From assembly GCF_000018865.1 (NCBI RefSeq), contig NC_010175.1, forward strand, positions 4,030,001 through 4,094,000: DNA of 64,000 bases, written 5' to 3'. Each line of letters opens with the position of its first letter. The first letter of the stretch is position 1. This document shows, piece after piece, positions 6,990 to 55,945 of this stretch. A model generated the notes under the pieces. The model was not told where the DNA came from. It did no database searches and saw only the letters and a list, made by a program, of their open reading frames with translations. A program made the translations under genes and the position numbers. Origin of the DNA: Chloroflexus aurantiacus J-10-fl. Its GTDB lineage: Bacteria; Chloroflexota; Chloroflexia; Chloroflexales; Chloroflexaceae.

Positions 6990-8590
6990 CCGTTCGCCAG
7001 CCAGCATTACCCGTACCGCGAAGTGTGGAGTGCGGCAGCCATGCTGCCGCGCCAGCCATGCTCACGCACAGACACAGGTCGCAGCGGACACCCGTACCGG
7101 TTCGTGACCCGTGACGCATCGCCTGGCGTAGCCGGGAGCGCGCGCTTCCAGCGTGCTTGACCAGAAATGTATCACCAGCCAGTGTTAGAGCGGATACCAT
7201 TTCCAGCCAGCATTGACCGTATCGCGAAGTGTGGAGTGCGGCAGCCATGCTGCCGCGCCAGCCGTGCTCACGCACAGACACAGGTCGCAGCGGACTCCCG
7301 TGCCGGTTCGTGACCCGTGACGCATCGCCTGGCGTAGCCGGGAGCGCGCGCTTCCAGCGTGCTTGACCAGAAATGTATCACCAGCCAGTGTTAGAGCGGA
7401 TACCATTTCCAGCCAGCATTGACCGTATCGCGAAGTGTGGAGTGCGGCAGCCATGCTGCCGCGCCAGCCGTGCTCACGCACAGACACAGGTCGCAGCGGA
7501 CTCTCGTGCCGGTTCGTGACCCGTGACGCATCGCCTGGCGTAGCCGGGAGCACGCGCTTCCAGCGTGCTTGACCAGAAATGTATCACCAGCCAGTGTTAG
7601 AGCGGATACCATTTCCAGCCAGCATTACCCGTACCGCGAAGTGTGGAGTGCGGCAGCCATGCTGCCGCGCCAGCCGTGCTCACGCACAGACACAGGTCGC
7701 AGCGGACTCTCGTGCCGGTTCGTGACCCGTGACGCATCGCCTGGCGTAGCCGGGAGCACGCGCTTCCAGCGTGCTTGACCAGAAATGTATCACCAGCCAG
7801 TGTTAGAGCGGATACCGTTCGCCAGCCAGCATTGACCGTACCGCGAAGTGTGGAGTGCGGCAGCCATGCTGCCGCGCCAGCCATGCTCACGCACAGACAC
7901 AGGTCGCAGCGGACACCCGTACCGGTTCGTGACCCGTGACGCATCGCCTGGCGTAGCCGGGAGCACGCGCTTCCAGCGTGCTTGACCAGAAATGTATCAC
8001 CAGCCAGTGTTAGAGCGGATACCATTTCCAGCCAGCATTACCCGTACCGCGAAGTGTGGAGTGCGGCAGCCATGCTGCCGCGCCAGCCATGCTCACGCAC
8101 AGACACAGGTCGCAGCGGACACCCGTACCGGTTCGTGACCCGTGACGCATCGCCTGGCGTAGCCGGGAGCGCGCGCTTCCAGCGTGCTTGACCAGAAATG
8201 TATCACCAGCCAGTGTTAGAGCGGATACCATTTCCAGCCAGCATTGACCGTATCGCGAAGTGTGGAGTGCGGCAGCCATGCTGCCGCGCCAGCCGTGCTC
8301 ACGCACAGACACAGGTCGCAGCGGACACCCGTACCGGTTCGTGACCCGTGACGCATCGCCTGGCGTAGCCGGGAGCACGCGCTTCCAGCGTGCTTGACCA
8401 GAAATGTATCACCAGCCAGTGTTAGAGCGGATACCGTTCGCCAGCCAGCATTGACCGTATCGCGAAGTTTGGAGTGCGGCAGCCATGCTGCCGCGCCAGC
8501 CGTGCTCACGCACAGACACAGGTCGCAGCGGACACCCGTACCGGTTCGTGACCCGTGACGCATCGCCTGGCGTAGCCGGGAGCGCGCCTC
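6990..8590. repeat. eight-copy tandem array of a 206-bp repeat
   Basis: Successive copies of AGTGTTAGAGCGGATACC begin at 7181, 7387, 7593, 7799, 8006, 8212 and 8418, a period of 206 bp with one of 207. Each unit holds module A (GGAGTGCGGCAGCC...), a block with CACGCACAGACACAGGTCG, a block with CGTGACCCGTGACGCATCG and a block ending in CCAGCGTGC. Copies differ at a few linked positions (for example CCATTTCCAGCC or CCGTTCGCCAGCC at the junction), implying repeated unequal exchange. The last copy breaks off near 8590 into module B-like sequence (to about 8700). The period is not a multiple of three, so the open frames across it are not genes. Confidence 0.95.
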
Positions 8591-20369: not shown

Positions 20370-20475
20370 CATTTCGGTGTTTCATGGTGATGGTTTTAGT
20401 TCATATGTTCTACTATCAGGATCAATCAGGCGACAACTCAAAACCATCCTCAATCAATTGATGCCCCGGCGAGTA

Positions 20476-21547
20476 TAGAAACTATTTCAAAAAACATCTA
20501 CGAGAAGGTATCTTATTCATTACCGACCGATTCCATGTTCGTGACGATCACACCCGGCATCCTCGTGACCAGCAGGTCAACGACGTGACACGCGCCATAT
20601 CGTGTGTACGGCTGGCGCGGCAGCATGGCTGCCGCACTCCAAACGACGCCACACGCGGATGATGAGCGAACAAGGCAACCTATCTAACACGTGATGGCAC
20701 TGGCGATGGCCGGTAACCATCCTCGCTTCCATACCGGCAGACTGGGAGCAGGATCGACTAGAACCTGTTTCAAAAAACATCTACTATGAAGTTGTCTCAT
20801 TGTGACCAGCCGGGTCAACGACGTGACACGCGCCAGATTGTGAGCACGGCTGGCGCGGCAGCATGGCTGCCGCACTCCACACGCTACGCCGTGCACATGC
20901 CAGGCGGATAAGGCATCCTATCCAACACGTGATGGCACTGGCGATGGCCGGCAACCATCCTCGCTTCCATACCGGCAGACTGGGAGCAGGATCGACGAGA
21001 ACCTGTTTCAAAAAACATCTACTATGAAGGTGTCTCATTGTAACCAGCCGGGTCAACGACGTGACACGCGCCATATCGTGTGTACGGCTGGCGCGGCAGC
21101 ATGGCTGCCGCACTCCAAACTACGCCACACGCGGATGATGAGCGAACAAGGCAACCTATCTAACACGTGATGGCACTGGCGATGGTCGGCAACCATCCTC
21201 GCTTCCATACCGGCAGACTGGGAGCAGGATCGACGAGAACCTGTTTCAAAAAACATCTACTATGAAGGTATCTCATTGTAACCAGCCGGGTCAACGACGT
21301 GACACGCGCCATATCGTGTGTACGGCTGGCGCGGCAGCATGGCTGCCGCACTCCAAACTACGCCACATGCGGATGATGAGCGAACAAGGCAACCTATCTA
21401 ACACGTGATGGCACTGGCGATGGTTATTAGAGCGCGATAGTACAGCTTTTTATGAAATAAGTTTTATCTTTGTTGATTGGCAAGCGTTCATGCGCCTGTA
21501 CAGTGGTCGGCTAGCACGACAGAGCAGCTTTTATAAAATAAGTTCTA
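20476..21547. mobile_element. MITE-like element, internally amplified in tandem
   Basis: The left end TAGAAACTATTTCAAAAAACA (20476) and right end GTTCTA (to 21547) are inverted relatives of the ends of the 351-bp element at 49818-50168. Between them lie repeated interior units. AGAACCTGTTTCAAAAAACA begins near 20760, 20998 and 21236, a 238-bp period; the first unit is longer (about 283 bp). Each unit has ACGACGTGACACGCGCC, module A in reverse orientation, and CACGTGATGGCACTGGCGAT. Two relatives of the GCTGTRCTGTCGTGC end appear, at about 21440-21470 and 21510-21547. No transposase is encoded, so movement in trans is inferred. The 238-bp period is not a multiple of three. Confidence 0.7.
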
Positions 21548-22370
21548 TTCTACCTCTTACCTCCCACCTTCTCTCTCCTACCTCCCACCGTCTCGTCCCT
21601 ACCTCTCTCGCTCCTACCTCCCACCGTCTCGCCCCTACCTCTCTCGCTCCTACCTCCCACCGTCTCGCTCCTACCTTCTCCCGTCTCGCTCCTACCTCCC
21701 TCGCTCCTACCTTCTCCCGTCTCGCTCCTCCCTCCTCCTGTCTCGCCCCTACCTCTCTCGCTCCTACCTCCCACCGTCTCGCTCCTCCCTCCTCCTGTCT
21801 CGCCCCTACCTCTCTCGCTCCTACCTCCCACCGTCTCGCTCCTACCTTCTCCCGTCTCGCTCCTACCTCCCTCGCTCCTACCTCCCCCCGTCTCGCTCCT
21901 CCCTCCTCCTGTCTCGCCCCTACCTCTCTCGCTCCTCCCTCCCCCCGTCTCGCTCCTCCCTCCTCCTGTCTCGCCCCTACCTCTCTCGCTCCTCCCTCCC
22001 CCCGTCTCGCTCCTCCCTCTCTCGCTCCTCCCTCCTCCCGTCTCGCTCCTCCCTCCCCCCGTCTCGCTCCTCCCTCTCTCGCTCCTACCTCTCTCGCTCC
22101 TCCCTCCCCCCGTCTCGCCCCTACCTCTCTCGCTCCTCCCTCCCCCCGTCTCGCTCCTCCCTCTCTCGCTCCTCCCTCCTCCCGTCTCGCTCCTCCCTCC
22201 CCCCGTCTCGCTCCTACCTCTCTCGCTCCTCCCTCCCCCCGTCTCGCCCCTACCTCCCCCCGTCTTGCCCCTACCTCTCTCTCCTACCTCCTCCCGTCTC
22301 GCCCCTACCTTCTCCCATCTATCTCCTATCTCCTATTTCCTACTTTCTATCTCCTCCCTCCCCCATCTTA
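21548..22370. repeat. pyrimidine-rich minisatellite, about 820 bp
   Basis: The plus strand is almost entirely C and T, built from short variable words such as TCTCGCTCCTACC, TCCCACCGTCTCGC, TCCTCCTGTCTCGCCC and CCTCCCTCTCTCGC. The few G residues fall mainly in CG of CTCGC and CCGTC, and A mainly in CCTACC. The words tile in many combinations, with longer blocks duplicated (for example the CTCCTCCTGTCTCGCCC block several times). A 293-codon frame (Leu-Ala-Pro-Thr-Ser-rich) crosses it only because pyrimidine codons contain no stops; it has no ribosome site and is not called a gene. Confidence 0.9.
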
Positions 22371-22499
22371 GGCCAGATTCAGGTTTGCGGAATTGCCGAT
22401 ACTGTTGTATACTGTCTACGGCTAGGGTACAGCCACAGGGTATTAGTGTGTACTAAGCCCATGGCCCGAACCCTGACGAGCAGTAGGTTGTCAATGCTT

Positions 22500-22700
22500 T
22501 GTTGAAACTGGCGACAGGTATACCAACCCATTACAGGCAAAGACAACCGTCGTATGGTTTGTAACCTGGCTGGCAGTTGGTATGGGCGGTAAGCTTATCA
22601 GGCTGTTCAAGGTTGTCGTATGAATCGTCTGTGAGGGCTATTCACAAGCCGCTTCCGCTGCCTCTGTGTAGTGGCTTATCGCAGCAGTCTGCGTTGTTCG
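22500..22700 (+). ncRNA. candidate structured leader or small RNA before nusA
   Basis: The stretch upstream of nusA contains nested complementary segments. ATACCAAC (22520-22527) pairs with GTTGGTAT (22576-22583). GACAACC (22542-22548) can pair either with the nearby GGTTTGT or with GGTTGTC (22611-22617). AAGCCGCT and AGTGGCTT form a third hairpin near 22647-22677. These are followed by an intrinsic-type terminator at 22706. Alternative pairings followed by a terminator suggest a regulatory leader or a small stable RNA. It matches no family I recognise, and the expected rimP gene is absent here. Confidence 0.35.
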
Positions 22701-22705
22701 GGTGG

Positions 22706-22730
22706 AAAGTGGGTTGAACCCACTTTTCTT
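22706..22730 (+). terminator. terminator/attenuator hairpin 22 bp before nusA
   Basis: AAAGTGGG and CCCACTTT form an 8-bp stem with loop TTGAA, followed by TCTTATT. It sits between the structured leader and the nusA start at 22752, where it could attenuate the operon or end a small RNA. Confidence 0.55.
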
Positions 22731-22751
22731 ATTATCAGGCGAGTTACAGCG

Positions 22752-24080
22752 ATGAAAAGCGATTTTTACGCGGCAATTACTCAGATTGCATCCGAGCGCG
22801 GTATTCCAAAAGAGGCCATCATCGATGTGATGGAACGGGCATTGGTGAGTGCGTATCGACGTTTATTAGGCCCGAATCCGCCGGCTATCGATGTGGTTGT
22901 CAAGCTCGATCCGGTAAGTGGTGTGGCGCGGGTGTACGCTGAGAAACAGGTTGTTGATGAAGTGTACGATGAGCGTTTTGAGATCGATCTCGAAGCGGCT
23001 CGCCGCATTAAACCTGATGCGCAGATCGGCGAGGCAGTCCTGGTCGAGAGTACCCCGCGTGATTTCGGGCGGATTGCTGCTCAAACCGCCAAGCAAGTTG
23101 TCTTGCAGGGCATCAAGGATATTGAGCGCAATTACATCTACAGCGAGTTTGAGGATCGCGAAGGGGAATTGCTCACGGCAACCGTTCAGCGCAATAACGG
23201 CCCGCGCGGTAACGTGATTCTTGAACTTGGGAAAGCCGAAGCCATCATTCCACCGAAAGAGCAGGTAGCGAATGACCGCTACTACCACGGGCAGCGGCTG
23301 AAAGTCTATTTGATGGAAGTCAAGAAGGATGAGCGAGGGCCACGCCTGATCGCCTCTCGTGCGCATAAGAATTTGATCCTCCGTCTCTTCGAGATGGAGG
23401 TGCCTGAAATCTACAATGGCGCCGTTGAGATTAAGTCTATCGCTCGCGAGCCGGGGCTGCGCACGAAGGTCGCCGTCGCCGCTCGTCAAGAGGGGATCGA
23501 TCCGGTTGGTTCGTGTGTCGGTATGCGCGGTATCCGCATTCAGAATATCGTGAACGAGCTGAACGGCGAGAAGATCGATGTTGTGCAGTGGTCGTCTGAT
23601 CCGCGCGAGTACATTGCCAACGCACTTTCGCCGGCTCAGGTGGTCGAAGTTCATCTTAATGATCACGAGCACACCGCCCTGGTTATTGTGCCCGATAAGC
23701 AATTGTCACTGGCAATTGGTAAAGAAGGGCAAAATGTACGCCTGGCCGAGAAGCTGACCGGTTGGCGAATCGATATCAAGAGTGCCTCGGTGCTGCTTGA
23801 AGAGGAACGAGCAGCGGCTGAGGCGCGTGCGGAGGCGGAAGCTGAACAGATGGCGATTGAGGCTGAGCTGGCAATGGCTCCGATAGAGACACGAGTGGTG
23901 CAACCGGATGGTACCATTCGCTACCGTGGCCATCGCTATGGCCCTCTTGGTTCCGATCTGGTCGGTAAGACGGTACAGGTGCGAGCGACCTCGCAGAAGA
24001 TTTTTATCTATTACAATGACCGCCTGTTCGCTTCCTACATTTTGCTGGAAGGTGGACAGGTAGTGCCCGATGAGGAGTAA
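22752..24080 (+). CDS. nusA: transcription termination/antitermination factor NusA
   Basis: 442 residues. The N-terminal RNA-polymerase-binding domain ([20 protein letters not shown]...) is followed by an S1 domain (around residues 135-200, [23 protein letters not shown]). Two KH domains come next: [23 protein letters not shown] is the GxxG-type element of KH1, and [28 protein letters not shown] that of KH2. The C-terminus is an Ala/Glu-rich helix (about 355-380) and a short beta-rich tail not found in E. coli NusA. The ATG at 22752 starts the domain; the open frame before it lies over the terminator. Spacing to ylxR (4 bp) indicates an operon nusA-ylxR-infB. Confidence 0.95.
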
Positions 24081-55179: not shown

Positions 55180-55945
55180 CTGGGGGCGGGGACTACCGGT
55201 ACCGGATGACTCCCGCTGCCGCAAGCTGGTTCCAGCTTGCAATACCTCGTTGGACGAAGTCACCGATATGTTGCAGGTGGTGAGCGAGCAGCGCGCCGGA
55301 GGCGTGCGCTCAGTTGGGCGCGCTCAGTGTCCCAGGGACGCGGGTCAGCGGCGCGCGCTCCCGGTACTCCCAGGCGATGCCTGACGGTGACCGTCCGTAT
55401 GGATAGCAAGCATTGATATTGGGGCTGATGCCAGCAGTGCGTTGCGACACGCCCCCACCCTCACCCGCCCCCGCTGGGGGCGGGAACTAGCGGTACCGGA
55501 TGACTCCCGCTGCCGCAAGCTGGTTCCAGCTTGCGATACCTCGTTGGACGAAGTCACCGATATGTTGCAGGTGGTGAACGAGCAGCGCGCCGGAGGCGCG
55601 CGCTCCCAGCGCTCCCAGGCGATGCCAGACGGTGACCGTCCGTATGGATAGCAAGCATTGATATTGGGGCTGATGCCAGCAGTGCGTTGCGACACGCCCC
55701 CACCCTCACCCGCCCCCAGCGGGGGCGGGAACTAGCGGTACCGGATGACTCCCGCTGCCGCAAGCTGGTTCCAGCCTGCGATACCTCGTTGGACGAAGGC
55801 ACCGGTATGTTGCAGGTGGTGAGCGAGCAGCGCGCCGGAGGCGCGCGCTCCCAGTTGGGCGCGCTCAGTGTCCCAGGGACGCGGGTCAGCGGCGCGCGCT
55901 CCCAGCGCTCCCAGGATATGCCTGACGGTGACCGGCAGTCATGCT
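55180..55945. repeat. three-unit tandem array of module B
   Basis: GATGACTCCCGCTGCCGCAA recurs at 55205, 55499 and 55744. The last two units are 245 bp long and the first 294 bp, because an extra block with GTCCCAGGGACGCGGGTCAG is present. Units include CCCCCACCCTCACCCGCCCC, GGTTCCAGCYTGCGATACC, GAGCAGCGCGCCGGAGGCG and GACGGTGACCGTCCGTATGG. GC-palindromic blocks match those at 2580-2835. The rest of the gap 55046-56070 has no supported gene. Confidence 0.85.

Follow-up and report, generated by a model that had tools for sequence, protein, structure and literature searches.

Tandem 7-bp intergenic repeats are known from cyanobacteria as STRR heptamers, which are built like the arrays described here and have other sequences. 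In Chloroflexus aurantiacus itself, (GATAGRA)n satellites are already in print: the 2019 survey of Subirana and Messeguer (PMC6749651) gives them as Fam_1_14_23 and regards them as probably transposed. In the main text of that survey, a word search returned neither "stop codon" nor "orientation". A polar arrangement has been described by Rehm et al. (2015, PMC4692102) for dispersed G-rich heptamers of Xanthomonas (GGGAATC) and Nostoc (GGGGAYT), whose G-rich strand lies either close to a stop codon in the sense direction or, in antisense, ahead of an ORF. The TAACTGA heptamers of Beggiatoaceae (MacGregor 2015, PMC4679880) are also arrays tight on gene borders, although they stand upstream of start codons and are not purine/pyrimidine in make-up.

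The window analysed here is a stretch of 64,000 nucleotides of the C. aurantiacus J-10-fl chromosome (NC_010175.1, positions 4,030,001 to 4,094,000). Its top-scoring pyrimidine segment lies on the forward strand at 21543-22369, with a score of 419 against 20 for the best among 20 Markov copies, so that the long one-sided pyrimidine tract noticed in a sequence-only reading of this DNA does exist. The description "nearly pure C/T" was a little strong: positions 21548-22370 are strongly C/T (721 of 823), with 102 purines. Instead of the shuffled words of 10-18 bp proposed there, cutting at TCGC gives 21 pieces of 21 bp and 13 of 15 bp, plus four odd pieces (62, 19, 36 and 77 bp), the first (62 bp) and last (77 bp) of which are the tract ends. 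A 21-bp word such as TCGCTCC-TACCTCC-CACCGTC reads as three 7-bp units. TRF finds periods of 36 and 57 across most of the tract, and the higher-order portion of 21-bp and 15-bp words (TRF period 57) covers 21606-22314 on the forward strand. It is followed at 22315-22369 by a border end of plain heptamer-type units (TATCTCC, TATTTCC, TACTTTC), with a pattern match at genome 4052332-4052356 (window 22332-22356). Overall, the best period is 21 and the lag-7 identity 0.54; there are 30 CTAYYT words, 52 GGG+ runs and one G3N1-7 quadruplex motif. No Rfam RNA family was found up to E 0.5 within 20400-22800, and the tract is very probably a non-coding satellite.

The tract ends 382 bp before the ATG (22752) of a coding sequence (22752-24080, forward strand; our own gene call, conserved in relatives) which we take, with the sequence-only reading, to be nusA; that reading's placing of the tract upstream of this gene is borne out. 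The purine strand is the minus strand, and its 5' end at 22369 points toward the nusA promoter. That promoter is a predicted one: a promoter-like TTGCGG-N17-TATACT was read by eye at 22385-22413 on the forward strand, its -35-like box 15 bp past the tract, and resembles by eye the TTGCAA-N17-TATACT of six relatives; it is absent from the list of a stricter promoter scan. The tract would thus leave a good nusA promoter intact. Six Chloroflexus species share a strongly conserved leader (22414-22751), which has no Rfam match and ends, just ahead of the nusA start, in a terminator-like hairpin (22704-22728), a possible attenuator.

Directly left of the tract lies a MITE-like element with TAGAA.../...TTCTA ends (20476-21547, forward strand), which contains 3.6 tandem copies of a 238-bp unit (20568-21423, forward strand, TRF). 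The tract starts where this element ends, its GTTCTA ending at 21547, as the sequence-only reading had said of the mobile element. We rejected the idea that the tract is a tail of the MITE, because most MITE right ends lack it: among 11 right ends in the sampled stretches, one (at nusA) abuts an array and two lie at 11 bp from one. On the far side of the arrays, the nearest MITE piece is in the pyrimidine-strand orientation in 15 of 18 cases. The window also holds a 206-bp satellite of 7.7 copies (6997-8587, TRF), which at genome 4037018-4038510 has short stretches in common with the MITE-like element, and a 245-bp unit in 2.1 tandem copies (55350-55854, TRF).

Such a tract had been called exceptional in a bacterial chromosome, which does not hold for this genome. 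In its single contig of 5,258,541 bp, 55 matches to the tract were found, itself included and several within the same arrays, and three copies of the pattern YCTAYYT matched 487 times against 31 for the reversed control. We sampled the arrays in 44 stretches (43 around matches, one at the contig start), which together with the window make 939,000 bases. There, 52 tracts reach a score of at least 35 (median 140 bp), at densities that differ from those of the genome because the stretches were placed mostly around matches; some shorter pattern-matched arrays fall under this score and are left out of the count. The tract is therefore not singular, and the 52 arrays compare with 22 satellites counted by Subirana and Messeguer (PMC6749651). 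At 827 bp it is the longest of the 52, the second measuring 677 bp. In 49 of the 52 tracts, the period that fits best is a multiple of 7, and the pyrimidine strand of the arrays averages 45% C and 1% G. A scan of public genomes returned at least 120 stretches scattered across many phyla and was little informative. The nusA tract is a heptamer-based tandem array of the (GATAGRA)n unit type, alike to Fam_1_14_23 in species, heptamer type and genome-wide scatter (PMC6749651). Within a dispersed family of polar 7-bp purine:pyrimidine arrays, with GGAGATA and variants on the purine strand, it is the longest member seen and the most elaborated; it counts as elaborated because most of its units have diverged.

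Placement of the arrays was scored against genes called by a hexamer model trained on the sampled stretches, after discarding calls with over 20% of overlap with arrays and shifting starts out of arrays. Scorable arrays numbered 49 of the 52, two at stretch edges and one within a called gene being excluded. The purine strand's 5' end is the gene-nearer end in 47 of these 49, and the median distance from array to gene is 3 bp at this end against 495 bp at the 3' end (KS against uniform, p 1e-17). Of the 49 arrays, 28 have this 5' end toward the stop of a purine-strand gene, at 6 bp or less in 26 of the 28; a separate listing of 26 stop junctions has 21 TAG and 5 TGA, with the stop at the array edge or a few codons inside. 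Another 21 have it toward a pyrimidine-strand start codon, at distances of 3 to 1018 bp, and the nusA tract is of this class, its purine 5' end just upstream of the promoter. A strong -10-like box lies within 70 bp of 13 of 22 start-class arrays, against 18% of shuffles, and none was found near the 30 stop-class arrays. One start-class array (genome 4632754-4632887) really stands 43 bp upstream of a tRNA-Gly gene and not of a protein gene.

The border end is also the more regular one. Among the 49 arrays of at least 80 bp, its lag-7 identity is 0.728 against 0.640 at the other end (p 6e-4) and it carries 0.097 canonical words per base against 0.064 (p 8e-5); G runs, in 17 against 9 of the 49, do not differ significantly (p 0.13).

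This is the polarity of Rehm et al. (PMC4692102), since 47 of 49 arrays have the G-rich 5' end near a sense stop or antisense-upstream of an ORF. The nusA tract corresponds to their antisense-upstream type, but outside their 50-bp class because it lies 382 bp from the start codon. Their arrays differ in having another unit, mostly about four units in number, with the G-quadruplex runs that GGAGATA, having no GGG, lacks. Among open-licence papers we found no description of such polarity for Chloroflexus. What would be new here is the placement rule in Chloroflexus, whereas the repeat family (PMC6749651) and the polarity in two other groups (PMC4692102) had been published before. That arrays nearly always run in one direction, pressed to a gene or promoter edge, hints at an unexplained directional process.

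A purine-strand frame that enters an array soon hits a stop, which could mimic flush stops. All seven genes with a clear orthologue in the related genome G008 terminate no more than 8 residues away from the stop that the array supplies, four of them at the same length; these were the genes checkable against 1.12 Mb of G008, and four further matches at 24-35% identity were treated as paralogues and dropped. On the same evidence, truncation by array insertion was rejected for these seven genes. Among 70 REP/MITE-like elements dispersed through the same DNA, 2 directly abut the stop codon that they face, against 26 of 50 arrays, and these elements show no asymmetry between 5' and 3' ends (p 0.17). 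Nor is there polarity in the purine-rich intergenic segments of G008, where the two ends count 185 against 167 (of 352) with the loosest cut and 81 against 100 (of 181) with the following one; this led us to reject generic purine-rich seeds as its source. Flanks resembling another array's flank occur on the far side in 27 of 52 arrays and on the border side in 3 of 52, which is what unique genes at the borders and repeat-rich DNA on the far side would produce.

The nusA site measures 170 bp from one matching flank to the other in G008, and 2.2 kb in this genome. The heptamer pattern was found in none of seven other members of the genus, one of them only 82% complete. We nevertheless withdrew the statement that the sister species are empty, as 8-bp arrays of the GGGAGATA kind occur in three of the seven. 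Four of six octamer loci inspected are flush with a purine-sense stop, that is, three of five sites (two of the loci being one site in two species). At the site shared by two species, a frame of 348 residues ends against 26 bp of octamer in G010 and 402 bp in G007, between closely similar flanks. This is direct evidence of length change in place, for the 8-bp analogue and at a site other than the nusA tract.

In the family, the heptamer is present in 9 of 41 genomes, this one included. In three of them (G015, G039 and G040; 30 loci sampled of 59 matches), a purine-sense stop lies at the start of 11 of 27 arrays outside ORFs, and at the opposite end of 1. For a GGATGAA heptamer in G001, G034, G036 and G037 (30 loci of 52 matches), the figures are 10 of 23 against 0. 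The start-codon half of the rule is not seen in these related genera (5 against 5 in the first group, 3 against 8 for GGATGAA), and the end closer to a gene is the border end in 13 of 20 and 11 of 20 arrays, respectively, so that either the rule is weaker outside the species or plain ORF calls blur it. Two loci, L336 and L343 in G036 and G037, consist of inward-facing GGATGAA array pairs with a short gap, an arrangement expected to fold into long hairpins. In L336, convergent frames have their stops directly against the two arrays.

To account for the family, its polarity and flushness, the regularity gradient and the one in-place length difference seen in the 8-bp analogue, we favour, at a probability of about 0.5, a scheme in which units are seeded at borders and amplified in place while selection guards genes and promoters. 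A few units would first settle where their purine 5' end touches the limit of a transcription unit: for a gene on the purine strand its stop codon, or, on the pyrimidine strand, the upstream edge of a promoter. Slippage during replication or repair, chiefly toward the border end, would then lengthen and renew the array where it stands, and selection would keep coding sequences and promoters free of it. In the nusA case, amplification of a secondary 21/15-bp unit between the MITE and the promoter would have led to the 827 bp. We infer both slippage as the means and the dispensability of any function. Slippage acting independently at each site is not enough to explain why a single heptamer occupies so many places, or why the arrays are polar. 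Against this scheme stand also the missing start-codon half of the rule in the related genera and the fact that, with gene calls of our own, arrays that end purine-strand frames favour flush stops.

The same geometry could have been selected. In a reading that we find doubtful, arrays are one-way transcription barriers: C-rich, G-poor transcripts running toward the border would load Rho, or purine-rich outgoing transcripts would stall in R-loops, and transcription would stop before invading a promoter or running antisense into a gene end. This geometry suits all border types, the composition of the pyrimidine strand (45% C, 1% G) and the median length of 140 bp are in keeping with it, and two Rho-domain genes are present. 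However, Rho is also present in G008, which lacks the heptamer pattern, and arrays stand at only some dozens of genes. To our knowledge, cyanobacteria such as Nostoc lack Rho. Yet the same polarity occurs in Nostoc (Rehm et al. 2015, PMC4692102). The sharp border junctions and the recurrence of one unit at many sites might instead point to a dedicated enzyme that copies or inserts units at borders, for instance a reverse transcriptase or a single-strand transposase priming on the purine strand. We consider this unlikely, and rejected these two agents, as matches to reverse transcriptase (PF00078) and Y1 transposase (PF01797) do not track the arrays among 10 genomes; nor could a target duplication be established.

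Readings confined to the tract fare worse. Its strong purine/pyrimidine asymmetry had suggested a triplex or a replication-stalling element to the sequence-only reading. We hold this to be very unlikely: no pyrimidine run of the tract exceeds 15 bp before a purine breaks it, where H-DNA calls for a long, uninterrupted, mirror-like homopurine:homopyrimidine run, and 51 other sampled arrays have no special link to nusA. The tract is thus a weak triplex candidate. The 293-codon frame mentioned in that reading exists (21490-22371), and both word lengths, 21 and 15, are multiples of 3. Stops are not expected in the tract anyway, because nearly all its purines stand in contexts like TCGCT, CTACC and CCGTC. 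The start codon of the frame lies inside the MITE, and 6 of the 8 variable columns of the words fall on codon positions 1 or 2, on which ground a coding repeat protein was rejected. An assembly artefact is opposed by the genome paper, which reports a finished JGI assembly of 5.3 Mb at 11-fold coverage (PMC3150298). Both a repeat protein and an artefact are scarcely credible, and the two objections that the sequence-only reading had raised against itself, a translated product and misassembly, do not apply.

Border seeding followed by amplification in place may itself be a case of something wider. It is possible, though we propose it tentatively, that a general, unit-independent bacterial process sets short G-rich repeats with fixed polarity at transcription-unit borders, where they would then grow in place; it would cover GGAGATA, GGGAGATA and GGATGAA in this family, GGGAATC in Xanthomonas and GGGGAYT in Nostoc, and the nusA tract would be its most extreme product seen here. 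We found no described mechanism for such polarity and flushness. Neutral slippage would hardly produce polarity together with flushness to stops at the single base, and this in more than one repeat unit.

In summary, the tract alone is a curiosity, and what matters is the rule to which it leads. The rule poses the question of whether a mutational process is tied to the borders of transcription, or whether the arrays are a selected barrier to it.
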